Shown: positions 42,424-58,086 of the stretch, piece after piece | Layout of the letters: every line of letters starts with the position of its first letter | Position numbering within the stretch: the stretch's first letter is position 1 | Source of the DNA: Mycobacteroides saopaulense | GTDB taxonomy: Bacteria > Actinomycetota > Actinomycetes > Mycobacteriales > Mycobacteriaceae | Assembly: GCF_001456355.1 (NCBI RefSeq) | Contig: NZ_CP010271.1 | Location: 4,585,176 to 4,649,175 of the forward strand | Direction: 5' to 3' | Length of the DNA: 64,000 nt | Notes under the pieces: generated by a model | Told to the model about the DNA's origin: nothing | What the model saw: only the letters and a program-made list of their open reading frames with translations | Databases searched by the model: none | Translations under genes and position numbers: made by a program

Positions 42424-44711
42424 CCCGACTCACGCATCGCAGCGCGACGCGTGTGGCGGCAGTCCTTGCCGTCCTCGCGCTTGTCCTGCTGGGCGCGCCC
42501 TGGTCGACACCGCAGGCCCACGCGTACCGCGACGGTCAGTTCCTCAAGGTCCTCATCGACGAGGTGAGCCCCCAAACCGTCACCACTGTCGACTCGACGG
42601 TGACCGTGCGGGGCACCGTGGCCAATGTCGGTGATCGCCCGGTCACCGACGTGGTGGTCCGGCTGGAACGGGCCGACGCGGTTACCGCCAGCGCCGACCT
42701 GCGCGCCAATCTGCACGGCCGCCACGATCAGTACCGGCCCGTCGGCGAGTTCGTCACCGTCGCAGGCACCCTGGAACAGGGACAGCAGCGCCCCTTCACG
42801 CTCGCCTTCCCGCTGCGCGGAGGTACCGGGCCGAACTGGAACATCGAGACACCCGGGGTCTATCCGGCCCTGGTGAACGTCAACGGCACCCCCGACTACG
42901 GCGCCGCCGCCCGGCTCGACGACGCCCGCTTCCTGCTCCCGGTTCTCGGGGTGCCCCCACCCACCGGTGCCGCCTCCGAGCCCGAGATCGCTCCCGACAC
43001 CTCTCGCCCGGTGGGTCTGACGCTGCTGTGGCCCCTGGCCGATCGTCCGCGGCTGGCCCCCGGCCAGCCCGGTGGACCGACACCCGTACGCCTGCTCGAC
43101 GACCAACTGGAACGCTCCCTTTCCCCCGGAGGCCGGCTGGACGCCCTGCTGGGCGCCCTGGAATTCGCGACCGACGCCGCCGTCGACCCGAAGGGGGACC
43201 TGGGCCGGACGGTCTGCGTAGCGGTCGACCCCGATCTGCTCGTGACGGTCAACGAGATGACCCTGGGCTACCAGGTCCTCGACGACTCCGCCGACCCCGC
43301 CGGTCCGGTTCATCCCGGCACCGGGCAGGGACTCGCCCTGGCGTGGCTCGATCGGCTGCGCGCCATGGCACGGCACATGTGCGTTACGCCGCTGCCCTAC
43401 GCACAGGCCGATCTCGACGCGGTCGCGCAGATGGCCGACGACGGTCTTTCTCACCAAGCCACCACCGGCGCCGCCGATGTGCTCGACCAGATTTTGGGAA
43501 CCAACAGCCTGCGCGGGGCCACTCTGCTGGGCGATGGCCACCTCTCGAACGCCGGGATCGACCTCCTCACCGCACAGGGGCCAACGGTCGCGGTGTCCCC
43601 CTTGCCGTCAGGTCAGGAGACTCTGCCCGATTTCAACCCACGTCGTGTGTCCGACACCGTGGTCGCGGCACCATTCGATCCGTCGGTGGGCGCCGCGCTG
43701 AGCGCCATCGGCCGCACACCCGCCACCCCCGACTACGTGCCCTCATCGCTTCGCTTTGCACTACAACATGATTCACGTGTGGCGCGGATGCAGGACGCCC
43801 TCGGGGCGATGGCCTGGCAAGCGCTGAACCCGGCACAGACTCCCCGCCAGACGATTCTGCTGCCGGAGACAACCTGGGATCTGTCCGATGGCGAGGCGCG
43901 CTCGATCCTGTCCGCCACCTCCACCCTGTTGCATGCCGGACTCGCGATACCGCGACCGCTGCCGACCGTCATCGGTGAGGCCCGGGCCGGCGCCCAGGCC
44001 AATCCCGTCGACGCCACGTACGGCGTGGACCCCGCCGGGGCCGTGGACGACTGGGTCTCACAGGGACTGGGCGATGAAATCCGTCGGCTCTGGGGTCTCA
44101 CGGCGGCACTGACCGTGGATGCCCGCACCGGACTCACCGGTGCGCAGTACACCAATCCGCTGCGCCAGGATGCGCTACGCGCGGTGAGCCAAAGCGTTCC
44201 GCAGGATGCACGCGACGACTCCGCGCGGGAACGGCTTGCCGCCATTCGCCGCACGGTCGGCGATCTGTTCAACGCCGTCACCGTCGTCAATCCGGGCGGC
44301 TCCTACACACTGGCCACCGAGCACAGCCCGCTACCGCTGGTGCTGCGCAACGAGCTTCCGGTGCCGATCCGGGTAACCCTGCGCGTCGAGACACCCGCTG
44401 GCATGAGCGCGACGGATGTTGGCGTACAAGAGATTCCACCCGGATTCCTGCCGGTGAAGGTGCCCGTGGAGGTCAACGTGTCTCAGCGCATGGCGGTGGA
44501 CGTCACGCTGCACACGCCCGACGGTCTGCCGCTGGGCGACCCGGTGCGCCTTTCGGTGCACTCCAACGCGTACGGCAAGCCCCTGTTCTTCATCACCATC
44601 AGCGCCGCTACCGTTCTCTTCGCGCTGACGGGTCGGCGCCTGTGGCACCGGTTCCGCGGCCAACCCGATCGCGCGGATCTAGACCGCGAGGACGAAGCAT
44701 GGCAGCCGTGA
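42420..44711 (+). CDS. DUF6049 secreted/membrane protein (Rv3909 homologue)
   Basis: 763 residues. Signal peptide at residues about 10-36 ([21 protein letters not shown]). A beta-rich extracellular part (NARF-like [32 protein letters not shown]) precedes a large domain and a second beta-sandwich ([26 protein letters not shown]). The C-terminal span is [22 protein letters not shown] with a short cytoplasmic tail. It is always found upstream of murJ in mycobacteria, so an envelope role with the lipid II flippase is likely. It overlaps murJ by 13 bp. Confidence 0.85.
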
Positions 44712-47700
44712 GAGAGCCGCTGGATCCGTTACCCGATCCCGAATCCGACGACACGATCGAGGAACTGTCCGACGCGGCCGTCATCGGGCATTCCGGTTCG
44801 ATGGCGGTGGCCACCCTGGTCAGCCGGATCACCGGCTTCATCAAACTGCTGCTGATCACCGCGGCACTCGGCGCCGCCTCCGCGAGCGCGTTCTCGACCG
44901 CCAACCAACTGCCCAACATCATCGCCGCGTTGGTCCTGGAGGCCACCTTCACCGCCATCTTCATCCCGGTGCTCACCCGCGCAGAACGCGAAGATGCCGA
45001 CGGCGGTGAGGCATTCATCCGCAAGCTGTTGACGATCGTCACGACCCTGCTATTGCTCACCACGGTGCTGTCGGTGCTGTCCGCACCCCTGCTGGCCGCA
45101 CTGATGCTCGGCGGTGACCCGAAGGTCAGCACGTCGCTGACGACCGCGCTGGCGTATTTGCTTCTCCCACAGATCTTCTTCTACGGGCTGTCTTCGGTGT
45201 TCATGGCAACCCTCAACACCCGCAATGTGTTCGGTCCGCCCGCCTGGGCACCGGTGTGGAACAACATCGTCGCGATCGTCACCCTGATCCTGTACTGGCT
45301 GATGCCCGGGGAGCTGACCCTCAACCCCACGCGGATGAGCGATCCCAAGCTCCTCGTGTTGGGTATCGGCACCACGCTCGGCGTCGTGACCCAGGCCCTG
45401 GTGCTGGTTCCCGCGATCCGCCGTCAGCACATCCCGATGCGCCCGTTGTGGGGCATCGACGACCGGCTCAAACAGTTCGGCGGGATGGCCGCCGCCATGT
45501 TCGCGTATGTGGCCATCAGCCAATTCGGGTATGTCATCGCGAACCGTATCGCCGCCGGCGCCGCCGATTCCGGCCCGATCATCTACAACCAGACGTGGCT
45601 GATCTTGCAGCTGCCGTACGGCGTGGTCGGCGTGACCATCCTGACCGCCATCATGCCGCGGCTGAGCCGCAACGCCGCCGCAGAGGACACCCGGGCGGTG
45701 CTCGGCGATATGTCTCTGGGAACCCGCCTGACGATGACTGTCCTGATCCCGGTGGTGGCGGTGATGACCGTCGGCGGGCCCGCGATGGGTCCGGCCCTCT
45801 TCGCCTACGGGAATTTCGGCCTCGCGTCCGCTCATTACCTGGGGCTCTCGATCTCGCTGTCCTCATTCACGCTCATCCCCTATGCCCTTGTGCTGCTGCA
45901 ACTTCGGGTGTTCTATGCCCGCCAGGAGGCCTGGACCCCCACCTGGATCGTCATCGCGATCACCGCGGTGAAGATCATCGGCTCGGTCATCGCGCCTCAC
46001 CTCACCGACGACCCCAACCTGGTCGCCGGCTATCTCGGCACCGCCAACGGCCTCGGCTGGGTCGCGGGCGCCGTCTGCGGGTACCTGCTGTTGCGTAGGA
46101 GCCTGGGGCGCGCGTGCGGACCACTCGTCGGTCCGGAGGTGGCCCGCACGGTTCTGGTCACGCTCGCCGCCTCGGCGACCGCGGCCGCCGTCGGTCTCGG
46201 CATCGACCGCGGTCTCGGCCTGGACCTACTCACCGTTCGCGGCGGCGGGCCGGGCTCGATTCTGCGCCTGGCCATTCTCGGCATCGTCATGCTCGGCGTG
46301 ACCTTCGCGCTCACTGTCGCGGTCAAGCTGCCCGAGGCGCTGAGCGTCGTTTCCATGCTGCAGCGTCGTCTGGGCGGTCGACTCGGAGTCGGCGTCCAAG
46401 ATCACGCTTCGGTCATGGGCAACTCCGCCGCGCCTTCCCTGCCGTACCCTGATTCGGGTGATCGAGTCGTCGGCAGCAGTGCGGCCGACTCGACAACCGC
46501 AAACAAACCAGCGCACGGGGGCGGTGCTGATACGAGAAAGGGCAGGGCTGTGACCGACACCCCGGGGTCATCGACTCGGCCTGTTTCCACCCAGTCCCCG
46601 TCCACGGGCCCTGTTCCCACCTCGGTGATGCCCGGTGCCCGCATCGCCGACGGCCGCTATCGCCTGCTGACTTCGCACGGTGGCCCGGACGGGTTGCAGT
46701 TCTGGCAGGCCACCGATATCGAACTGAACCGGCCGGTGGCCCTGACGATCATCGACGGCACCGTGTTCAGCTCCGATCAGGTGCAGGACATCCTGTCGAA
46801 TACCCTGCGGCTCAGCAAGATTGAATCTCCGGGCCTGGCGCGGGTGTTGGATGCGGTACGCGAGGGAAGCGGCGGCATCGTCGTTGCACAGTGGGTTCGT
46901 GGCGGTTCGCTGCGCGAGGTCGCAGACACCGAGCCGTCTGCCGTCGGCGCCAGTCGAGCCGTCCGATCCCTTGCCGAGGCCGCCGACGCGGCATTCGAGG
47001 CCGGATCGGCACTGAGCATCGACCACCCGGACCGCGTGCGTATCAGCATCGACGGGGACGCGGTACTCGCGTTCCCGGCCACGCTGTCCTCGGCCAGCGC
47101 CGATGAGGACGTTCACGGCCTCGGTGCCGCCCTGTACGCACTGACCACGCGCCGTTGGCCGCTGGCAGAAACGGGTCAACCGAGCGGGTTGGCTGCCGCC
47201 AATCGTGCTCCGGACGGCCGGCCTGTCGAGGCCCGCGTCATCGTGCCGACGGTGCCCACCGAGATCTCCGATGTCGCCTCGCGCGCGCTGAGCGATGACC
47301 CCGGTTCGGCGGCCGAACTGCTCGACGGTCTGGAATCGGCCATCGCGAGCGTCGATCACACCACCATGCTCGAGCCTGCCGCAGCGGCACCTACGCAGGC
47401 GCTGGGTATCGGCCGCCGCCAGGGTTTCGGGGAGCCGTCGGAGTCCACCGAGGACGATGACGAGGATTACGAGGACCTCGACGACGAGGATCCCGAGGAG
47501 GCGGCCCGTCACCGCAAGATCTTCCTGATCGGGCTCGGCGTGGTCGGTGTCCTGGTCATCTCGCTATGCGTCGCGCTGGGCGTCTGGGTGACGCGGATCT
47601 TCGGGGACGTGGGCCCCCTGGACAAGATCAACATCGGCATCGGGCTACCCACCCAGTCCTCGGACGGCGGCGCCGTCACACCCGGTAGCCCCGCCAAGAT

Positions 47701-48139
47701 CGTGCAAGCGACGGTGTTTCCCCCGGGCCCTGACGCCGATCAACCGGGCAAGGCGGGTCTGGCGATCGACGGCAACTCCTCCACGTCATGGACCACCGAC
47801 ACCTACACCGACGCCGACCCCTTCCCCGTGCTCTTCAAGCCCGGCGTCGGTCTGCTGCTCGATCTACAGTCGGCGAGCGCCCTGAGCAGCGTCACGATCG
47901 AATCGCACAGTGTCGGAACGCAGGTGCAGATTCGTTCCGCCGACTCCTCCACGCCGGCCTCCTTCAACGACACCAAGGAGATCTCGGCTACCACCACTCT
48001 GAAGTCCGGCAAAACCACGATTCCCATCACCAGCAGCTCTCAGGTCTCTCATGTGCTGGTGTGGATCAACAAGCTGGGCTCCACCAACGGCGATCACCAC
48101 GCGGAGATCGGCGAAATCACCGTGTCGACTGCTTCCTAG
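44699..48139 (+). CDS. murJ: Lipid II flippase MurJ fused to a pseudokinase
   Basis: 1146 residues from ATG 44699. The MurJ/MviN part (residues about 35-560) has 14 spans (TLVSRITGFIKLLLITAALGAASASAFSTANQLPN...). A cytoplasmic pseudokinase follows at about 640-900; it starts at GARIADGRYRLLTSHGGPDGLQFWQATDIELNRPV and lacks an HRD catalytic loop. An acidic linker (EDDDEDYEDLDDEDPEE), a span (about 940-965) and an extracellular beta domain complete it. Same layout as Rv3910, whose pseudokinase is phosphorylated by PknB and binds FhaA. It moves lipid II across the membrane for peptidoglycan synthesis. Confidence 0.93.
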   Translation: MAAVREPLDPLPDPESDDTIEELSDAAVIGHSGSMAVATLVSRITGFIKLLLITAALGAASASAFSTANQLPNIIAALVLEATFTAIFIPVLTRAEREDADGGEAFIRKLLTIVTTLLLLTTVLSVLSAPLLAALMLGGDPKVSTSLTTALAYLLLPQIFFYGLSSVFMATLNTRNVFGPPAWAPVWNNIVAIVTLILYWLMPGELTLNPTRMSDPKLLVLGIGTTLGVVTQALVLVPAIRRQHIPMRPLWGIDDRLKQFGGMAAAMFAYVAISQFGYVIANRIAAGAADSGPIIYNQTWLILQLPYGVVGVTILTAIMPRLSRNAAAEDTRAVLGDMSLGTRLTMTVLIPVVAVMTVGGPAMGPALFAYGNFGLASAHYLGLSISLSSFTLIPYALVLLQLRVFYARQEAWTPTWIVIAITAVKIIGSVIAPHLTDDPNLVAGYLGTANGLGWVAGAVCGYLLLRRSLGRACGPLVGPEVARTVLVTLAASATAAAVGLGIDRGLGLDLLTVRGGGPGSILRLAILGIVMLGVTFALTVAVKLPEALSVVSMLQRRLGGRLGVGVQDHASVMGNSAAPSLPYPDSGDRVVGSSAADSTTANKPAHGGGADTRKGRAVTDTPGSSTRPVSTQSPSTGPVPTSVMPGARIADGRYRLLTSHGGPDGLQFWQATDIELNRPVALTIIDGTVFSSDQVQDILSNTLRLSKIESPGLARVLDAVREGSGGIVVAQWVRGGSLREVADTEPSAVGASRAVRSLAEAADAAFEAGSALSIDHPDRVRISIDGDAVLAFPATLSSASADEDVHGLGAALYALTTRRWPLAETGQPSGLAAANRAPDGRPVEARVIVPTVPTEISDVASRALSDDPGSAAELLDGLESAIASVDHTTMLEPAAAAPTQALGIGRRQGFGEPSESTEDDDEDYEDLDDEDPEEAARHRKIFLIGLGVVGVLVISLCVALGVWVTRIFGDVGPLDKINIGIGLPTQSSDGGAVTPGSPAKIVQATVFPPGPDADQPGKAGLAIDGNSSTSWTTDTYTDADPFPVLFKPGVGLLLDLQSASALSSVTIESHSVGTQVQIRSADSSTPASFNDTKEISATTTLKSGKTTIPITSSSQVSHVLVWINKLGSTNGDHHAEIGEITVSTAS

Positions 48140-48383
48140 CTGGGCGATCGTCTGACAGTCGAGTAGTTATCGAACGCCTTTCGGTATTCGATCCGCGAAT
48201 CCCGGTCTATATTTTTCGTGGTAGTTGAAACCCGATGGCAACCTGCAATTAGGTCGTTGAACTGCGGTTCATGTTGTTCAGTTACGAGAATCACTGTTAC
48301 AGATAATTGAAAGTTGTATAACAGTTTGCTGTGGGCCGATCGTGTGGTCGACGGCGCCCCCTATTTTTGATTACTGTGCGCGT
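48140..48383 (+). other. AT-richer intergenic region upstream of sigM
   Basis: No gene is seen. The 244 bp are distinctly AT-richer than their surroundings (TATATTTTTCG, ATAACAG, CTATTTTTGATTACTG), which marks the sigM promoter region. TACTGT at 48372-48377 is a -10 candidate with a 6-nt spacer to GTG 48384. SigM autoregulatory sites could lie here. Confidence 0.4.
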
Positions 48384-48974
48384 GTGGGCATGGTTCAGGG
48401 GGTTCTCACCACTCCTCAACACTCGGACGCCGAGCTGTTGGCTGCCCACGTCGCCGGCGATCCCTCGGCCTTCGAACAGCTGTTCCGCCGTCACCATCGC
48501 AGGCTCTACCGACTCGCCCGCGCCACCAGCCGCACCCCCGAGGATGCCGCCGATGCGCTGCAGGAGGCGATGCTGTCGGCGCACCGCGGAGCTGCCAACT
48601 TCCGCAATGACGCCGCGGTCACCAGCTGGCTGTACCGCATCGTCGTGAACGCCTGCCTGGATCGGCTACGCCGCAACAAAGCACACAGCCCGATCGAGCT
48701 CGAAGAGGACCTGTACACCGTTGAGGACCCCTCGACCAACGTCGACACCTCAATCGTCATCCAGAAGGCCCTGCTGCGGCTGCCCGCAGAACAGCGTGCG
48801 GCGGTCATCGCAGTCGATATGCAGGGATATTCGGTCGCCGATGCCGCTGAGCTGCTCGGTGTACCCGAAGGCACGGTGAAAAGTCGTTGTGCGCGTGCTC
48901 GCGCACGTCTGGCCGTCGCCCTGCACTATCTCGACAAGGCCGGCTCCGTCGAACCGGAAACCATCGACTACTAG
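48384..48974 (+). CDS. sigM: ECF sigma factor SigM
   Basis: 196 residues from GTG 48384; ATG 48390 is an equal alternative. Region 2 (SDAELLAAHVAGDPSAFEQLFRRHHRRLYRLARATSRTPEDAADALQEAMLSAHRGAANFRNDAAVTSWLYRIVVNACLDRLRR) and region 4 (ALLRLPAEQRAAVIAVDMQGYSVADAAELLGVPEGTVKSRCARARARLA) are complete. SigM directs a stress or stationary-phase regulon in mycobacteria. It is followed by its membrane-bound anti-sigma factor. The murJ-sigM-anti-sigma-trxB-trxA order is conserved from M. tuberculosis. Confidence 0.95.
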   Translation: MGMVQGVLTTPQHSDAELLAAHVAGDPSAFEQLFRRHHRRLYRLARATSRTPEDAADALQEAMLSAHRGAANFRNDAAVTSWLYRIVVNACLDRLRRNKAHSPIELEEDLYTVEDPSTNVDTSIVIQKALLRLPAEQRAAVIAVDMQGYSVADAAELLGVPEGTVKSRCARARARLAVALHYLDKAGSVEPETIDY

Positions 48975-49059: not shown

Positions 49060-49959
49060 ATGGTCAGCAACCAGCCGGGTGGCTCCGATGGCGAAGGTAA
49101 CCTCGACAAGGTGAACCTCGCCGAGGTACCGCTGTCACTAGAGGTCTTGGCCGACCTGCACGCCGGCGTCTACGACGCCGGTGATGCCGACGTACTTCGG
49201 CAACGGGCAGAGCACGATCCAGATGCACGCCAGGCGCTGGCCGCCCTCGGCCGTGTGCGCACCGACCTGGTGGCGTGGATGGAAAGTCCCGCACCCGATG
49301 TACCGGAGTCCGTCGTCGCCGACATCGTTGCCGCATTACGCACCGAGTCCGCCAAGTCCACGTTGCCCGCGGTAGCTGCGAATGCCCCTCGCCCCGCTGA
49401 CGCCGGCCTCAACCTGGTCACCGGGCCCGTTCCACTGGATCATCGCCGGCATCCGGCGGCAAAGCGTCGCTGGCTCGCCTACTCCGGCGCGGGCTTGGCC
49501 GCCGCCGCCTGCGTCGCCGTTGCCGTCACCCTGGTCGCACAGAACAATCACCGCGCCTCCCAGACCACCACCGCTGTGGCCGGACCCTCGTTGTCTCAGC
49601 AGATCGCACCCAAGACGGCCGCTCCGGTGGCACCAGAACTGCCCGCACAAAGCGCTTTGGGGCAGTCTCCCTTCCCGATATCCGGGAGTGAGATCACCGC
49701 ACTGGTCGGTCGCACACCCGCGTTCGGGGACCTACAGGATGCCGCGCGCCGCGCGTCCTGCCTCACCGGACTTGGCTTCTCGGCCTCCACCCCCGTACTG
49801 GGTGCACAGACTCTCGATGTCGACGGTCCCGCCGTGCTGATGGTCCTGCCTGCCGAACGCCCCGGCGAGCTACTGGCCGTGGCCGTGCGCCCGGGATGCA
49901 GCCAGTCCGACCCCCAGCGTGTGGCGCAGACCCGAATCGGCGCCGCACCCGGCCGGTAG
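49060..49959 (+). CDS. Membrane anti-sigma factor for SigM (Rv3912-like)
   Basis: 299 residues from ATG 49060. The N-terminal cytoplasmic part ([48 protein letters not shown]) looks like the sigma-binding segment. One span at residues about 136-160 ([23 protein letters not shown]) separates it from a Pro-rich exported domain containing SCLTGLGFS and RPGCSQSD. The zinc HxxxCxxC motif of ZAS anti-sigma factors is not present, so this is a zinc-free type. Position after sigM supports the role. Release of SigM would need regulated proteolysis (inference). Confidence 0.82.
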
Positions 49960-51428: not shown

Positions 51429-51538
51429 ATGCCGGGAGTTTCGCCCATCGCCTAGGCATCTGAGACAATATTGCCGTCCCGACGACGGGCAGCCGCTGTC
51501 CGATGGGTGGCAGTGCGGTTTCTTGCGAAAGGCGGAGT

Positions 51539-52726
51539 ATGACGACAGGCGCGTCGAACATTCGCCACGGCGATCGAGGCCCAGCCGTCACCGAGGTGCG
51601 CGAGGTACTGGCCGCACTCGGCTTCCTCGAGGACCCCGATGAGGTCTTGGCGACCGGTCGGCATGTGCTGGTGGATCACTTCGACGCGACGCTCGACGAC
51701 GCCGTACGGGCGTTCCAACAGCGCCGTGGCCTGCTCGTCGACGGCATTGTGGGGCCCGCCACCTATCGCACCCTCAAAGAGGCCTCCTACCGGCTCGGGG
51801 CGCGCACGCTTTACCACCAGTTCTCCGCACCGATGTACGGCGACGATGTGGCCACCCTGCAGAAGCGTCTCCAAGATCTGGGGTTCTACACCGGTCTGGT
51901 CGACGGCAACTTCGGGCTGCAGACCTACAACTCGCTCATGTCGTACCAGCGGGAGTACGGGCTGACCGCCGATGGCATTTGCGGACCGGAAACGCTGCGC
52001 TCCTTCCAGTTGCTGGGCCGTCATGTCACCGGCGGATCCGCGCACGCGATCCGTGAGACCGAACACGTCCGCAACGCCGGCCCGCAGCTGTCGGGCAAGC
52101 GGATCGTGATCGACCCCGGTCTGGGGGGCTCCGACCGCGGTGTCATCGTGCCGGGCCGGGAGGGCCCCACCAGCGAATCAGACATCTTGTGGGACTTGGC
52201 AAGTCGACTCGAAGGACGGATGACCGCCATCGGGATGGACACCTACATCTCGCGCGCCATCCAGAACAACCCCACCGATATCGAGCGCGCCACCTACGCC
52301 AACAACGTCGGTGCCGATCTGATGATCAGTCTGCGCTTCGACTCGCAGCCCACTGTGGCGGCCAGTGGGGTCGCGTCCTACCACTTCGGCAACCTGCACG
52401 GCTCGGTATCCACCATCGGACACATGCTGGCCGACTTCATTCAGCGAGAAGTGACGGCGCGCACCGGGTTACGTGACTGCCGAGCTCACGGCCGCACCTG
52501 GGACCTGCTGCGTTTGACCCGGATGCCCACCGTGCAGGTCGACATCGGCTACATCACCTCGCCGAACGATGTCTCCGTGCTCAGCGCCGCCCATTACCGC
52601 GATGTGGTGGCCGAATCGATTCTGGCCGCGGTCAAGCGTGTGTACCTGCTCGGCAAGAACGATCGGCCCACGGGCACATTCACTTTCGACGAGCTGCTGG
52701 CGCACGAATTGTCCGCCGGAAGCTAG
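51539..52726 (+). CDS. cwlM: CwlM, degenerate amidase-fold regulator of peptidoglycan synthesis
   Basis: 395 residues from ATG 51539. Two peptidoglycan-binding PG_binding_1 repeats (VTEVREVLAALGFLED..., VATLQKRLQDLGFYTGLVDGNFG) precede an amidase_3-like domain. Zinc ligands usual for amidases are altered: IDPGLGG where H is normal, ISLRFD where SIHAN is normal, and VDIGYI where VETGF is normal; SESDILWDL keeps the glutamate. So it is probably not a hydrolase but the cytoplasmic PknB-phosphorylated activator of MurA, as for M. tuberculosis CwlM. It meets the ferredoxin gene convergently with a 4-bp overlap. Confidence 0.93.
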   Translation: MTTGASNIRHGDRGPAVTEVREVLAALGFLEDPDEVLATGRHVLVDHFDATLDDAVRAFQQRRGLLVDGIVGPATYRTLKEASYRLGARTLYHQFSAPMYGDDVATLQKRLQDLGFYTGLVDGNFGLQTYNSLMSYQREYGLTADGICGPETLRSFQLLGRHVTGGSAHAIRETEHVRNAGPQLSGKRIVIDPGLGGSDRGVIVPGREGPTSESDILWDLASRLEGRMTAIGMDTYISRAIQNNPTDIERATYANNVGADLMISLRFDSQPTVAASGVASYHFGNLHGSVSTIGHMLADFIQREVTARTGLRDCRAHGRTWDLLRLTRMPTVQVDIGYITSPNDVSVLSAAHYRDVVAESILAAVKRVYLLGKNDRPTGTFTFDELLAHELSAGS

Positions 52727-52944
52727 CTCAGGCGCCGGACCTCGATAGCTGCGGCCGGACAGACGTGTGCCGCCTCGGCCGCTCCCCGCGCCTGCTCCGG
52801 CGATAGCCTCTCCGTCTGCAGTGACACGGCGGTGCCGTCGGCATCCTCTCCGAACAGATCCGGATGTTGCGTCACGCAATACCTGGATCCCATACACAGG
52901 TCCTGATCGACAACCACGGTCACACCGCTGTCCGGAGCGTTCAC
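52723..52944 (-). CDS. 3Fe-4S ferredoxin for the adjacent P450
   Basis: 73 residues from ATG 52944 (MNAPDSGVTVVVD). Cluster ligands C17, C23 and C62 form the C-x5-C...CP pattern (CMGSRYC, HVCPAA) of mycobacterial P450-associated ferredoxins, which hold a [3Fe-4S] cluster. The second motif residue is serine where many have histidine. It is the distal gene after the P450 with 1 bp between the two, so it is almost certainly its electron donor. Electrons would come from NAD(P)H via a ferredoxin reductase, which is not encoded in the cassette. Confidence 0.9.
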   Translation of the reverse strand: MNAPDSGVTVVVDQDLCMGSRYCVTQHPDLFGEDADGTAVSLQTERLSPEQARGAAEAAHVCPAAAIEVRRLS

Positions 52945-52945
52945 G

Positions 52946-54553
52946 TCACGCCGTCGTCAGCACGACAGGCAGGCCGCCGTCGAGGGTCACCGAGAAATTG
53001 AAGTGATGCTTAGGTTCCCAGCCCTCGGGTAATGCCAAGCGGTACCGCTGGAAGATGATCGCCAGTAAGAACTGCGCGTTCATGTATGCCATGCCCGTGC
53101 CCAGGCAGTGGTGCCTGCCCGATCCAAATGGCATGAAGGCCAACCGTGGACGGTCTTTGGCCGCTGCCTCATCCATAAAGCGGTTCGGATCATACAAATC
53201 GGGGGCCGTCCACCACCGCGGATCGCGATGGATGGAGTACAGCGAGGGTCCCACGATGGTGTACTGCGGGATGAAGTATCCGCCTATCACGTCATCTTCC
53301 ATGGCGAACCGGGGATTGAGCGGATGCCCCTGTAGCCTTTGCCCCTCGTCGAAACATGCCTTGGCCCAAGCCAATTTGGGCAAGTCGTCCGGCGTCGGCA
53401 CCGCACCGTTCAAAGAGTCCACCTCGGCGCACAGGCGCCCGAGATGTTCGGGGTGTGCAAGCAGCAGGGCGAGCGTCCATGAAAGCGATGCCACCACCGT
53501 CTCGTAGCCGCCCGCCATGAGGATCATCAACTCCATGCTGAGATCTCGCTCCGACAGCGGGCTTCCGTCGTCGTAGGTGGCCTCCAACAGCAGACTCAAC
53601 AAGTCGGGCGTCTCGATCGGATTATTCCGGCGGTCCTTGATCAGCCGCCGGGTCAACCGCCACAGCCTCCACATGGACCGTGGCGCGGACTCCCGTCCGG
53701 GTAGGGGGAAAAGATTCGGCAGTGGGCTCATCAACGTCACCGATGCCATCATGGACATGAAAGTCCTTAGATCGACGTCTGTTTCGTGGATCTCCCGCTC
53801 GGTGATGGAAGACGAGAACATCGCGCGGAGAAAGGCGGGCAGGGTCACCTGTGCGATGGCATGCTGCAGGTCTACCCGCCGACCGCTGCCGGCCCAGCGC
53901 TCCCATCCGTCGACTCGCCGCACAAACTCGTCCGCGATGACCTCCGCCACCCGTGCCAGGTGCCGCCGGCCGAACATCGGCATCAGCATCCGGCGCCGCT
54001 GCCGGAACTTGTCCCCCTCCAGCATCGGAATTGCCGCGCCAATCAAGCCCATCGCCGCCTGGCCCGGCCCGATCATGCTGTATCGGCCCACCGGATCGTC
54101 CATAACCTGGCTGGCATAGTCCGGGTGATTCACCACCACGATGCTGCCGCCGAGCGGGAAAGGCACCCGATACACATCGCCGAATTCCCTGGCACAGCGC
54201 CGAAAGAACTCGAACGGTTCACGACGCATTTCCGGCACGCTGCCCAGGATGGGGTGACCGACGGGCCCGGGCGGGCTGAGCGCCGGACTCCCCACACCCC
54301 TGGCCATGCTGGACACCATCGGAATCCCTCCGCGGGTAATCCACCACGGGTCCTGCCGCACAGATTCGAATCTTCTTTGAGTCCTGGCTATTTCGTTGAC
54401 CTCACGTACCGTCGGATTCATCGGCAGCGGCCCCCACCTCCCCGCCAGCTCGCGAGGCAGCCCCTCAGCTGCGGGACCTCGGGTTTGAGTCGGCGTCGGG
54501 GCGCCGATCGGGCACACTCCGGCCGTGACCTCGGACAACGGTGCTTGCGTCAT
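52946..54553 (-). CDS. Cytochrome P450 monooxygenase
   Basis: 535 residues from ATG 54553, preceded by an AAAGGAGGG ribosome site; a GTG at 54586 overlapping the upstream stop would add 11 residues. Heme-binding FGSGRHHCLGTGMA, I-helix AGGYETVVAS, K-helix FDEGQRLQG (ExxR) and DPNRF are all intact. A long N-terminal extension of about 85 residues precedes the globular domain (PPGPVGHPILGSVPEM), which is unusual for soluble bacterial P450s. The substrate is unknown; the neighbouring AveC-like membrane protein suggests a lipid or polyketide. Confidence 0.93.
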   Translation of the reverse strand: MTQAPLSEVTAGVCPIGAPTPTQTRGPAAEGLPRELAGRWGPLPMNPTVREVNEIARTQRRFESVRQDPWWITRGGIPMVSSMARGVGSPALSPPGPVGHPILGSVPEMRREPFEFFRRCAREFGDVYRVPFPLGGSIVVVNHPDYASQVMDDPVGRYSMIGPGQAAMGLIGAAIPMLEGDKFRQRRRMLMPMFGRRHLARVAEVIADEFVRRVDGWERWAGSGRRVDLQHAIAQVTLPAFLRAMFSSSITEREIHETDVDLRTFMSMMASVTLMSPLPNLFPLPGRESAPRSMWRLWRLTRRLIKDRRNNPIETPDLLSLLLEATYDDGSPLSERDLSMELMILMAGGYETVVASLSWTLALLLAHPEHLGRLCAEVDSLNGAVPTPDDLPKLAWAKACFDEGQRLQGHPLNPRFAMEDDVIGGYFIPQYTIVGPSLYSIHRDPRWWTAPDLYDPNRFMDEAAAKDRPRLAFMPFGSGRHHCLGTGMAYMNAQFLLAIIFQRYRLALPEGWEPKHHFNFSVTLDGGLPVVLTTA

Positions 54554-54582
54554 GTTGATGCCCTCCTTTCCCGCGAGCCCGG

Positions 54583-55431
54583 TCACGCGGCGGGAACAGG
54601 CTGTCGGGCGGCCGCGGTGCGAACCGGACCCAGCACCTTGGCCCCCACCTCATCGCGATACCGCTGGCACGTAGGCGAATACGCGACAATCACCACGGCA
54701 AGCAAGTTGAGGCCCGTGGAGAGGGCCGCCAGCCCCCACGACGGCAACGGTGCCAACCCCAGGTGAATCGCGAAATAGTTCGGCAGCGTGCAGACGATGG
54801 TGTACGCGAGATATGCTCCAGGCGCAACGAACGGGATTATGGCCCAACGGTATCCGCGCATATGCGGCCGGATCACCACAAGTACCCAGGCGATCATGAC
54901 CAGAAATCCGCCATTTTGCACGAGGCTGGGCAGAGGCACCCCGAAGACGAGCGCGTTGTTGCTGTAATACCTCATGAGACCGAAGTGACTGTTGACCATC
55001 TCGCCGATGCACTCCGCGATACCGAACACCAATGCAAAGGCAATGAGCGTCCAAGCCGCCCAACCCTTTTTGATCATTTCATACACGACCAGCGCTGTCG
55101 GCGCGGTACCAACCCACACCAGAGGGACGAAGATCGGCAGCGGCCGGTCGGCAATCGTGACGTAGGGCAAGGCGTTGGTCATGTAGGTGGTCGCACCGAT
55201 GACATCGAGCCAGGGCTCGACGAAATACGGCAGGATCGTCACCCCGCTGAACAGGATCAGCCAGTACATCAGCGCGTCTTCATGCTTGCGCACCGTCATC
55301 CATCCCACCCAGATGAGTGAAATCGCAAGACACACAACAAGTACCGCGACCACTATCCAGGCCCACCAAGGTTCGCCGTAGATGACCGGTGGCGGTCCCC
55401 ACTGCGCCCCTGCGCCCAACCGTGTCATCAC
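54583..55431 (-). CDS. Seven-span membrane protein, AveC-like
   Basis: 282 residues with about seven hydrophobic spans. Characteristic stretches are MYWLILFSGVTILPYFVEPWLDVIGATTYMTNALPYV, AECIGEMVNSHFGLMRYYSNNALVFGVPLPSLVQNGGFLVMIA and PGAYLAYTIVCTLPNYFA. This layout resembles the AveC/MeiC-type spirocyclase-like proteins common beside P450 genes in mycobacteria; I cannot confirm it by search. It overlaps the longer P450 start by 4 nt, so the two are coupled. A role in cyclising or positioning a hydrophobic P450 substrate is only a guess. Confidence 0.6.
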   Translation of the reverse strand: MMTRLGAGAQWGPPPVIYGEPWWAWIVVAVLVVCLAISLIWVGWMTVRKHEDALMYWLILFSGVTILPYFVEPWLDVIGATTYMTNALPYVTIADRPLPIFVPLVWVGTAPTALVVYEMIKKGWAAWTLIAFALVFGIAECIGEMVNSHFGLMRYYSNNALVFGVPLPSLVQNGGFLVMIAWVLVVIRPHMRGYRWAIIPFVAPGAYLAYTIVCTLPNYFAIHLGLAPLPSWGLAALSTGLNLLAVVIVAYSPTCQRYRDEVGAKVLGPVRTAAARQPVPAA

Positions 55432-55558
55432 CCGTGTCCTTTCGTCATCGCCATGCAGCTCATTCGGACACTAATGTCTGGTTTGAGAATAAGTCAATCA
55501 TTTCAAGACAAATGATTCCGCCGAACGACGGGTGTCGTGGCGGATCCGTGCCGTCGAC

Positions 55559-55574
55559 TATCCTCAGCCGCATG
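55559..55574 (+). promoter_or_regulatory. Leaderless-type -10 element of the TetR gene
   Basis: TATCCT (55559-55564), 7 nt, then ATG 55572. The 140-bp divergent region also holds TGTCTGGTTTGA and TTTCAAGACA halves at about 55475-55509 that could be the TetR operator. Confidence 0.45.
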
Positions 55575-56213
55575 GAGGATCCCTCGGGACCACCGATCCG
55601 AATGGCGGATCGGCAGCGCGCTCGGCGCAGTGAGCTCGTCAAGGAAGAGGTCGTCGAGGCCGCGCTCGCCGAGTTCTCCGAGCGCGGCTATCACCAGACC
55701 TCGATCGCGCACATTGCCGAACGGCTCGGCACGGGCCACTCGATGTTCTACCGATACTTCACGAACAAGCGCGACATCCTGGAACACGTGGTCCAGCACG
55801 CCACGCAACGAACCATCGAAACGCTCAGCCACACGTTGCCGGGCCGCATCACGTCACTGGACGAATTCCACGATTTCGCGGTGAATCTCGGCCTCGCCTA
55901 CATCGAGCTGGTAGTCGCTGACCCGCGGCTTTCCCGTCTGCTGCTGCAGCAGGGAGCTGCGGTCGATGCGGAGATGACCGCACAGTTCTGTGGCGTATTC
56001 GACGCCGGCGCTTCGGTTCTCGCGGGTCTATTGCGCGACGGGATCGAATCCGGTTACGTCCGTGCCGATATCGATGTCGAGGCCGTGGCGGATTCGGTGG
56101 CCGGCATTCCACTGGGCATCCTCGCCCGCTACGGACACGAGCCCGATCAGGACATCCTGGCCTCGAGGGTGCGGGCCACCGCCGCTCTCGTATGCCGGGG
56201 AATCGCTCCCTGA
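55572..56213 (+). CDS. TetR-family regulator of the P450 cassette
   Basis: 213 residues from ATG 55572; the frame upstream to 55389 lies in the promoter region. Helix-turn-helix EVVEAALAEFSERGYHQTSIAHIAERLGTGHSMFYRYFTNKRDILEHV, then a helical ligand domain. It is divergent from the AveC-like/P450/ferredoxin genes and overlaps the metallo-hydrolase gene by 22 bp, so it probably controls both arms. The inducer is unknown. Confidence 0.9.
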   Translation: MEDPSGPPIRMADRQRARRSELVKEEVVEAALAEFSERGYHQTSIAHIAERLGTGHSMFYRYFTNKRDILEHVVQHATQRTIETLSHTLPGRITSLDEFHDFAVNLGLAYIELVVADPRLSRLLLQQGAAVDAEMTAQFCGVFDAGASVLAGLLRDGIESGYVRADIDVEAVADSVAGIPLGILARYGHEPDQDILASRVRATAALVCRGIAP

Positions 56214-57148
56214 CGGGAATACCCGCCCTCAACTCCGCGTTTTCCGCCGCTGTGAAGACTTTCACCGTCGGCGATGCGACCATTACTCAGCTCACCGAAC
56301 GGGATGTGTGGCCCATCGCGCCACGTCACTGGTATCCAGACCTCACCGACCAACAGCTCGCATTCGTTCGCGAGACATACGCACCCGCCGCCGTCTCCGC
56401 AGACGGTGCGGAGCTGATCTTCGCGATCCACAACTACGTCATCGAACTCGGCGGCACGGTGATCGTGGTCGACACCTGCTCGGGCAATCACAAGAACAGG
56501 CCGCTCTTTCCCGACCTGCACATGCTCGATACCGATTACCTCGCACATCTCCATCAGGCTGGACACGCTCCCGGCGACGTCGACATCGTCATCAACACCC
56601 ACCTGCATCTGGACCACTGCGGGTGGAACACCCAGCTGACGCGCGGACAGTGGCAACCCACCTTTGCCAACGCTACCTATCTCTTCCATGCCACGGAGCT
56701 CGAATACATTCAGGCCCAATGGGAATCGGCGCCCGCAGAACAATGGGCGGACAACGGCGGTTGGGTCTACCAGGACAGCATCCTGCCGGTCCTGGAACAC
56801 GCCTCGCACGACGTCGTCGAGTCCGGGCAGCTGCTTCACGGCAATGGCTCCACCCAGGTCAGCGTCCTGGGCGCCGCGGGCCACACTCCCGGACACCTCG
56901 CCATCGAAGTGCGCTCTCCGGATGCCGGGGTGATCATCGCCGGTGACACATTGCACCACCCCATGCAGGCGCAATTCCCCGAACTACCGTTCTACGCCGA
57001 CGCCGACGCATCGACAGCCGCCGTGACGCGACAATCACTGCTCGGGCGCTGCGCCGATGAAGGGCTCAAACTTCTCGCTGCCCATTTCCCACCACACCTG
57101 CCGCTCGGTGTCCGTCGCGACGGCGCTGGGTTTCGGTGGGTGGACTAG
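56192..57148 (+). CDS. Metallo-beta-lactamase-fold hydrolase
   Basis: 318 residues from ATG 56192. Zinc motif NTHLHLDHCGW with H137, H139, D141 and H142, plus the later AAGHTPGHLAIEV and IIAGDTLHHPM. The N-terminal portion resembles quorum-quenching-lactonase-like and related MBL-fold hydrolases, though substrate cannot be told. Overlap with the TetR gene indicates coupled expression. It may open or hydrolyse an ester or lactone made or modified by the P450 arm (inference). It is convergent with the acetyltransferase gene. Confidence 0.88.
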   Translation: MPGNRSLTGIPALNSAFSAAVKTFTVGDATITQLTERDVWPIAPRHWYPDLTDQQLAFVRETYAPAAVSADGAELIFAIHNYVIELGGTVIVVDTCSGNHKNRPLFPDLHMLDTDYLAHLHQAGHAPGDVDIVINTHLHLDHCGWNTQLTRGQWQPTFANATYLFHATELEYIQAQWESAPAEQWADNGGWVYQDSILPVLEHASHDVVESGQLLHGNGSTQVSVLGAAGHTPGHLAIEVRSPDAGVIIAGDTLHHPMQAQFPELPFYADADASTAAVTRQSLLGRCADEGLKLLAAHFPPHLPLGVRRDGAGFRWVD

Positions 57149-57861
57149 AACGCGGCGCCGACCACAGGTCCCGCCCCAGCCGGTTGCGGAATCTGCACCG
57201 ATTCCAGCAGGCGTTCCAACGCGGCCTCAACCTCAGCCTTCCAGCCGAGTCCGCTGTCGAGCTCCAATCGCAGCCGGGGAAAATGCTGGTGCGGAGCCAC
57301 CACCGTGAAGCCCACATCCTTCAAGAAGTCCACGTCGATCATGCACTGCTCGATCGTGCACTCTCCCAACACATCTGCCGCCTCCGAATGCCTCGCGAGC
57401 GATCCCTCGCACATCTCCAACGCCTCGCTGGTGCGGCCGAACGCCTCCAGTGCGCGTACACCGCGGCGTATCAGTTCTGCAACCACGCTGGCGATGATGC
57501 TGTGCGGCAGGCCATCTGACTCATGCCCCGGCTCGACGCCGAGCGATGTCAACAAAATCGCGTCGGCGCTCACCGGCCCCGTCGGGAGGAGTCGAGCACG
57601 CGGCACCACCCCGGGCGGGGCATACAACGCATATCCCGCAGTGGTCGGTCGAGACTGTGGGCCGGTGACCGCGACCTGACCGCATGATCCCCACTCCAGC
57701 ATGACCATCGACAGCCACGCTTCCTTCTCGAACTCGGGGTCCGACAGGTGCTGCTGATCTCCGACGGTAGCGGGGTCCACCTCCCAGAAGACACACCGCC
57801 GGGCGTGCTTGGGCAGCTGCTCGAAGCCATCGAGCCGCAAAGGAACGATCCGAGCCGACAC
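57145..57861 (-). CDS. GNAT-like protein next to parB (Rv3916c homologue)
   Basis: 238 residues from GTG 57861 (VSARIVPLRLDGFEQLPKHARRCVFWEVDP), the start expected from the M. tuberculosis protein; GGAGG lies 12 nt upstream. Conserved stretches are EFEKEAWLSMVMLEWGSCGQVA, RARLLPTGPVSADAILLTSLGVEPGH and IDVDFLKDVGFTVVAPHQHFPRLRLELDSGLGWKAEVEAALERLL. It resembles N-acetyltransferases. The two-codon stop overlap with the metallo-hydrolase gene is 4 bp. Its role, and any link to parAB, are unknown. Confidence 0.88.
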   Translation of the reverse strand: MSARIVPLRLDGFEQLPKHARRCVFWEVDPATVGDQQHLSDPEFEKEAWLSMVMLEWGSCGQVAVTGPQSRPTTAGYALYAPPGVVPRARLLPTGPVSADAILLTSLGVEPGHESDGLPHSIIASVVAELIRRGVRALEAFGRTSEALEMCEGSLARHSEAADVLGECTIEQCMIDVDFLKDVGFTVVAPHQHFPRLRLELDSGLGWKAEVEAALERLLESVQIPQPAGAGPVVGAAF

Positions 57862-58086
57862 TGGTTTTGTACGCCTCCACGTCCGGTCAACATGGTGCGC
57901 GGCACGCCTCATGCGTCCGGCAACCCCTCCAGGATATGCGAAATTTCTGGATTGGCACCCGACAGCGCTGCCGTGATCCTCTGAAACCACCACCACAGCC
58001 CACACCCCACCCGCAACTGCCCGGCGGAGTCGAAATCCGTTAGTTACCAACTACTTTCATGAACGAGCCGGATTCTCCCGGGTTTC

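Follow-up and report, generated by a model that had tools for sequence, protein, structure and literature searches.

Two of the closest described systems may introduce the locus reported here. In actinobacterial pairs of a cytochrome P450 (P450) and a [3Fe-4S] ferredoxin, the P450 gene lies next to a gene for a small ferredoxin with the cysteine pattern C-x5-C...CP, and AveC is a membrane protein that acts together with oxidative enzymes. The locus lies in a stretch of 64,000 nucleotides from Mycobacteroides saopaulense (contig NZ_CP010271.1, positions 4,585,176 to 4,649,175; the window), the terminal part of a single 4.649-Mb contig, and consists of genes for a ferredoxin, a P450, a membrane protein, a TetR-family regulator and a metallo-beta-lactamase-fold hydrolase. 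It likewise has adjacent P450 and ferredoxin genes, but adds a membrane partner with seven helices, the TetR regulator and a long P450 N-terminus; a membrane protein with an oxidative partner is the feature shared with AveC. AveC itself is the spirocyclase/dehydratase of avermectin biosynthesis, with a dual role in spiroketalisation and dehydration (PMC13303154).

The cassette is real, and its setting is that of rapidly growing mycobacteria. The original prediction had placed five genes in two divergent arms between cwlM and the homologue of Rv3916c, and all five open reading frames (ORFs) are present there, with Pfam domains in the P450, the TetR regulator, the hydrolase and the ferredoxin; the ferredoxin, P450 and membrane protein genes form the minus arm, the regulator and hydrolase genes the plus arm, and parB/parA follow beyond the Rv3916c homologue. 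The labels cwlM, Rv3916c, parA, parB and trx are assumed, in part from that prediction. The nearest named relatives at the locus are Mycobacteroides (M. franklinii, Mycobacteroides sp. LB1 and CBMA 271, together with two Mycobacterium sp. records), and the window is thus placed in the abscessus-chelonae clade. Orthologous cassettes occupy the same site in named records and in further genomes. The boundary, which the original prediction proposed to examine by comparative genomics, is supported: an Rv3916c homologue was found in all 60 sampled genomes of the genus, and among the best 30 loci, one of them the window's own, the other 29 are all outside the clade and in every one cwlM lies 46–554 bp from the Rv3916c homologue and none of the cassette genes is matched. 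Mycobacteroides hubeiense has the TetR, membrane protein, P450 and ferredoxin genes together, but at a different genomic place.

The membrane protein recurs beside P450s in other genomes. It has no significant match to a Pfam or NCBIfam family, and its AF2 model has a pLDDT of 91.3. In an alignment of 56 relatives, which spans 15–93% identity to the window protein, residues E72, D76, E144, Y155, Y156, P166, N173 and G193 are invariant (56/56). A scan of 396 genomes gave 46 matches in 36 genomes, 19 of them strong (E < 1e-19), and 17 of the strong ones have a P450 within 600 bp; for the remaining two the distances are 2.1 and 3.0 kb. At 20 examined of the 27 weaker matches no P450 was found close by, mostly within about 1–1.5 kb of flank, and in two of the 20 a P450-like ORF lies 5–6 kb off. 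Pairwise distances among the P450s correlate with those among the membrane proteins over 22 loci (r 0.88) and over a set of 15 that keeps one Mycobacteroides and leaves out seven close Mycobacteroides copies (r 0.79), with 0 of 2000 permutations reaching as high. Partners are nonetheless exchangeable, since in two genomes a P450 that is 57% identical is coupled with a membrane partner of 22–25% identity.

The P450 is a family member by sequence (PF00067, E 1.6e-69, 235 bits against a cut-off of 22.8) and, as read and compared, it retains the heme cysteine motif (FxxGxxxCxG), ExxR and the I-helix sequence AGGYET (AGxxT). Two starts are available: the GTG overlaps the stop codon of the membrane protein gene, whereas a strong ribosome site, AGGAGG, sits just upstream of the ATG, which makes the ATG the likelier start. 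The N-terminal extension of the original prediction is real, but its length is not the 85 residues claimed, there being about 93 ahead of the Pfam core from the ATG and 104 from the GTG. The extension terminates in a DPWWITR-type motif; in seven other Mycobacteroides loci 32–39 of the 57–59 aligned positions in its residues 12–70 are identical, compared with 364–405 of 442 in the P450 core, so it is kept yet evolves faster than the core. The same genome encodes, elsewhere (774000–790000, L111), another P450 that shares 50% identity with the cassette enzyme and has a similar DPFWPTR motif before its core. The best curated NCBIfam model for the cassette P450 is the albaflavenone monooxygenase type (E 3.8e-51), but the P450 scores 174 bits where the cut-off is 700, so it is not a member and the substrate is not transferable. 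The ferredoxin scores above the Fer4_15 cut-off (E 8.8e-14, 52.4 against 22.4 bits) with the three-cysteine pattern CMGSRYC...CP, and a C-x5-C pattern in which Ser or Ala replaces the fourth ligand recurs in nearly all of the P450-linked relatives listed.

The hydrolase scores above the PF00753 (Lactamase_B) cut-off (E 9.7e-21, 75 against 22.7 bits) and has HxHxDH in the form HLHLDH; its nearest solved relatives are organophosphate hydrolases of the MPH/OPHC2 type (4le6, E 1.6e-19) and a reconstructed lactonase ancestor (5hif, E 3.7e-14). Its standing within the cassette was assessed in the close relatives, the ten of the 396 genomes with an Rv3916c homologue at E <= 1e-120 (85–100% identical). 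The membrane protein is present in eight of the ten, and six of these have the hydrolase at the site, the two without it being G333 and G170. In G243 a hydrolase match over 308 residues lies between cwlM and Rv3916c (L182:9910-10833), with no match to the ferredoxin, P450, membrane protein or TetR, and in G321, the closest genome by Rv3916c (96%), there are ferredoxin and hydrolase fragments only (L181:6006-6476), which read as a deletion scar. The core must then have been lost on one occasion or more. It is dispensable, and core and hydrolase can each occur without the other. Judged by gene content, the core is TetR, membrane protein, P450 and ferredoxin, and the hydrolase comes and goes independently; the original prediction is right that it belongs to the cassette at the window site, but not as a fixed part. 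The M. hubeiense cassette likewise has no hydrolase match, and in the corresponding position behind TetR (L009:8281-9243) there is an MpaB/rubber-oxygenase-type gene (PF09995, E 2.4e-58).

The TetR regulator scores above the TetR_N cut-off (E 3.4e-15, 56 against 24 bits) and is 78–95% identical in seven other Mycobacteroides loci and 68% identical in M. hubeiense. The divergent promoter region spans about 140 bp; according to PMC4482099, most divergent mycobacterial TetR genes are less than 200 bp from their neighbour. Within it is a 28-bp block, a candidate operator, of which 24 of 28 bases are invariant in eight Mycobacteroides loci and which is visible in M. hubeiense too. TetR presumably binds here. 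A pattern of 17 specified bases from the block has a single genomic occurrence at <= 3 mismatches, and a control pattern has no match; because the candidate site is unique in the genome, TetR action looks purely local. An operator in palindrome form was rejected, with 93 of 200 shuffles as good. A generic sigma-70 scan found no promoter in the divergent region, and the likely promoter elements in Table 1 were recognized from the sequence and the alignment. The likely -10 of tetR is so near the ATG that a leaderless tetR transcript is likely.

Table 1. Features of the cassette and its flanks, in window positions.
Feature	Position	Strand	Remarks
cwlM	51503-52726		Cassette flank
[3Fe-4S]-type ferredoxin	52723..52944	-	73 aa; C-x5-C ... 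CP, Ser at fourth ligand position
Cytochrome P450	52946..54553 from ATG 54553 (to 54586 from GTG)	-	535 aa (546 aa from GTG 54586); PF00067, motifs
7-helix membrane protein	54583..55431	-	56-sequence alignment, AF2 model, hhalign
Likely P450-arm promoter	55468..55497	-	TTGACT - 18 nt - TAGTGT; alignment columns well conserved
Candidate TetR operator	55493..55520	-	CGGAATCATTTGTCTTGAAATGATTGAC; overlaps -35 of membrane-protein/P450 operon
Likely tetR -10	55559..55564	+	TATCCT; 7 nt before ATG 55572; form conserved in alignment
TetR-family regulator	55572..56213	+	213 aa
Metallo-beta-lactamase-fold hydrolase	56192..57148	+	Optional part; PF00753, HLHLDH motif
Rv3916c homologue	57145-58050		Cassette flank

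The original prediction called the membrane protein AveC-like, which fails at the Pfam level and stands only as remote profile similarity through intermediates. The window protein does not match AveC_like (PF17198) with E <= 1, nor do 24 members of its family and six more of the superfamily at E values up to 10; the cassette in its own genome gave no match either, and AveC_like is not among the best 25 of 32 families for the 56 members. When profiles were aligned with hhalign, the window protein's own family (A1) reached a probability of 0.2% against AveC_like, and direct kinship of the window protein to AveC was accordingly rejected, Pfam and NCBIfam being blank as well. Two paralogue families that serve as intermediates between the window family and AveC_like reached 61.3% (A2) and 87.9% (A3). 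Combining profiles gave 72.5 and 87.0%, and no control (reversed profiles, MurJ, YidC and YrbE) exceeded 2.2%. The comparison was made with PF17198 members, and AveC_like has its own set of invariant residues (P, Y, G and Q), unlike the window family. A search that started from a distant homologue gave 262 matches, and among the best 120 of these none is named AveC, most being unnamed or 'hypothetical', two 'DUF5135' and one 'Carotenoid biosynthesis'; these last three have no AveC_like match. The name 'spirocyclase AveC family protein' is used for other mycobacteria in PMC5819568. One mycobacterium (G018) has an island on contig C4 (about 30–175 kb; L132, L133, L135 and L136) in which AveC_like and A3 genes are surrounded by genes for FAD oxidoreductases and CoA enzymes and by numerous TetR genes, with ten PF17198 matches over the cut-off and seven A3-type membrane-protein matches on the contig.

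The genomic neighbourhoods of the relatives bear on what the pair might act upon. Genes of the yrbE/mce type flank five of the 22 P450-linked loci (L010-L013 and L054), a count that becomes five of 12 when orthologous sets are merged (the seven Mycobacteroides copies falling within the 12 sets) and four of 11 when L010 and L011, two Nocardia loci that resemble each other, are taken as one. With 7.5–21 kb of flank per locus and 64 kb for the window the absences are soft, and Mce proximity, given here as a raw count, is a lead and not a test. In the window's own genome yrbE/mce genes also adjoin the 50%-identical P450 (L111), and a lone yrbE-like match lies beside a third P450 (37% identical; L112). 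Genes for SnoaL-like proteins adjoin the P450s in L009 and L012, and a DUF4440 match with a sub-cut-off SnoaL_2 score adjoins that in L111. Distant members of the superfamily are found near FAD oxidoreductases (by Pfam), CoA enzymes and AveC_like genes, and, in a by-eye reading, near CoA ligase, acyl-CoA dehydrogenase and Rieske-type genes.

That the P450 and membrane protein act on a lipophilic small molecule, as the original prediction had it, is a sensible guess, and our own reading extends it. Tentatively, at a little under an even chance, we take the cassette to be a locally TetR-regulated module that oxidises and then rearranges one lipophilic molecule. TetR would repress both arms until a ligand, either substrate or product, arrives; the ferredoxin would pass electrons to the P450, which would oxygenate a lipid that dissolves in the membrane, for instance a steroid, a terpenoid or a polyketide-like chain. 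The membrane protein would then serve as an acid-base catalyst within the bilayer on the same molecule, bringing about cyclisation, dehydration or isomerisation, and so be AveC-like in action without Pfam AveC_like membership. Where present, the hydrolase might open a lactone or ester of the product or substrate, and the pathway could run towards biosynthesis or breakdown. Gene order, motifs, conservation and pairing are features of the sequences compared; how electrons pass, which class of substrate is used, the acid-base step, lactone opening and the direction of the pathway are what we infer.

A somewhat unlikely alternative is that the cassette is an inducible catabolic or detoxifying one, in which TetR responds to a lipid or xenobiotic from outside, the P450 begins its oxidation, the membrane protein and hydrolase open or rearrange a ring, and the product passes to general degradation. 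The Mce operons and SnoaL-like genes near some relatives, and the oxidoreductase, CoA-enzyme and Rieske-type genes near distant ones, are in keeping with this, as is the absence of the membrane protein from two of the ten close relatives, which suits a niche function. So is the lack of scaffold genes: none of the five genes encodes a polyketide synthase or another scaffold enzyme. With this lack, the Mce and SnoaL-like neighbours and the catabolic-looking islands of the distant relatives, the spiroketal tailoring suggested by the original prediction is unsupported. Against the catabolic reading, the five genes include no CoA enzyme, ring-degrading enzyme or transporter, and the 64 kb of the window gave no mce/yrbE match. 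A cassette for a lactone signal, with a lactone hormone made by the P450, a ScbR-like TetR sensor and a lactonase that destroys the hormone, would fit the best NCBIfam matches of the TetR regulator (ScbR, E 9.5e-16) and the hydrolase (AidB lactonase, E 2.6e-18). We regard it as very improbable, as the regulator falls far under the cut-off for ScbR-type butyrolactone receptors (NF041196, 58.5 against 150 bits), the hydrolase falls below all of the lactonase equivalog cut-offs listed (AidB 66.2/360, AttM 43.2/390 and AiiA 34.8/375 bits, all N-acyl homoserine lactone lactonases), and the hydrolase is no fixed part of the cassette.

The membrane protein could also be a non-enzymatic lipid-binding partner, holding the substrate, anchoring the P450 in the membrane or sensing a sterol-type lipid in the manner of Insig. 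The AF2 model has a partial fold match over residues 52–194 to MvINS, an Insig protein (PDB 4xu4) with a 23.6-kDa protomer that forms trimers according to PMC7815742, but there is no sequence match to Insig: PF07281 (INSIG) gave no match among 24 members up to E 10, is not among the best 25 of 32 families for the 56 members, and in none of 61 genomes scanned does a locus exceed its cut-off. We think such a role improbable. A broader proposal, which we hold to be unlikely, is that the membrane protein belongs to a superfamily of intramembrane acid-base enzymes (EPxxD...E...YY...N), possibly with an Insig-like lipid-binding fold, of which AveC would be a distant branch, and whose actinobacterial members would form the second half of modules that oxidise and rearrange, with a P450 and a [3Fe-4S] ferredoxin here, near FAD oxidoreductases elsewhere, and partly beside Mce importers.

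At lower positions of the window there are a putative MurJ-like ORF (44642-48139), then a putative sigma-factor-like ORF (48342-48974) and an ORF that is likely a partner (49060-49959).

Many P450s are paired with a ferredoxin; what is uncommon is a partner in the membrane that recurs, carries invariant acidic residues and lacks a Pfam entry. The M. abscessus counterpart of cwlM is MAB_4942, which is listed as essential in a table of PMC8262987 and whose tag also occurs in a table of PMC3987819; from its position next to MAB_4942 the cassette would correspond to MAB_4943 to MAB_4947, genes on which we found no relevant paper in the main texts of the open-access literature. If the P450 and the membrane protein do act in sequence, this would provide a predicted second step for a set of unassigned mycobacterial and Nocardia P450s. 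In that case the catalytic residues of AveC, whose models in a mutagenesis study of 2026 still await experimental validation (PMC13303154), would be testable by analogy. With its single candidate operator, the cassette would also be a clean single-site TetR system, suited to discovery of the inducing ligand.

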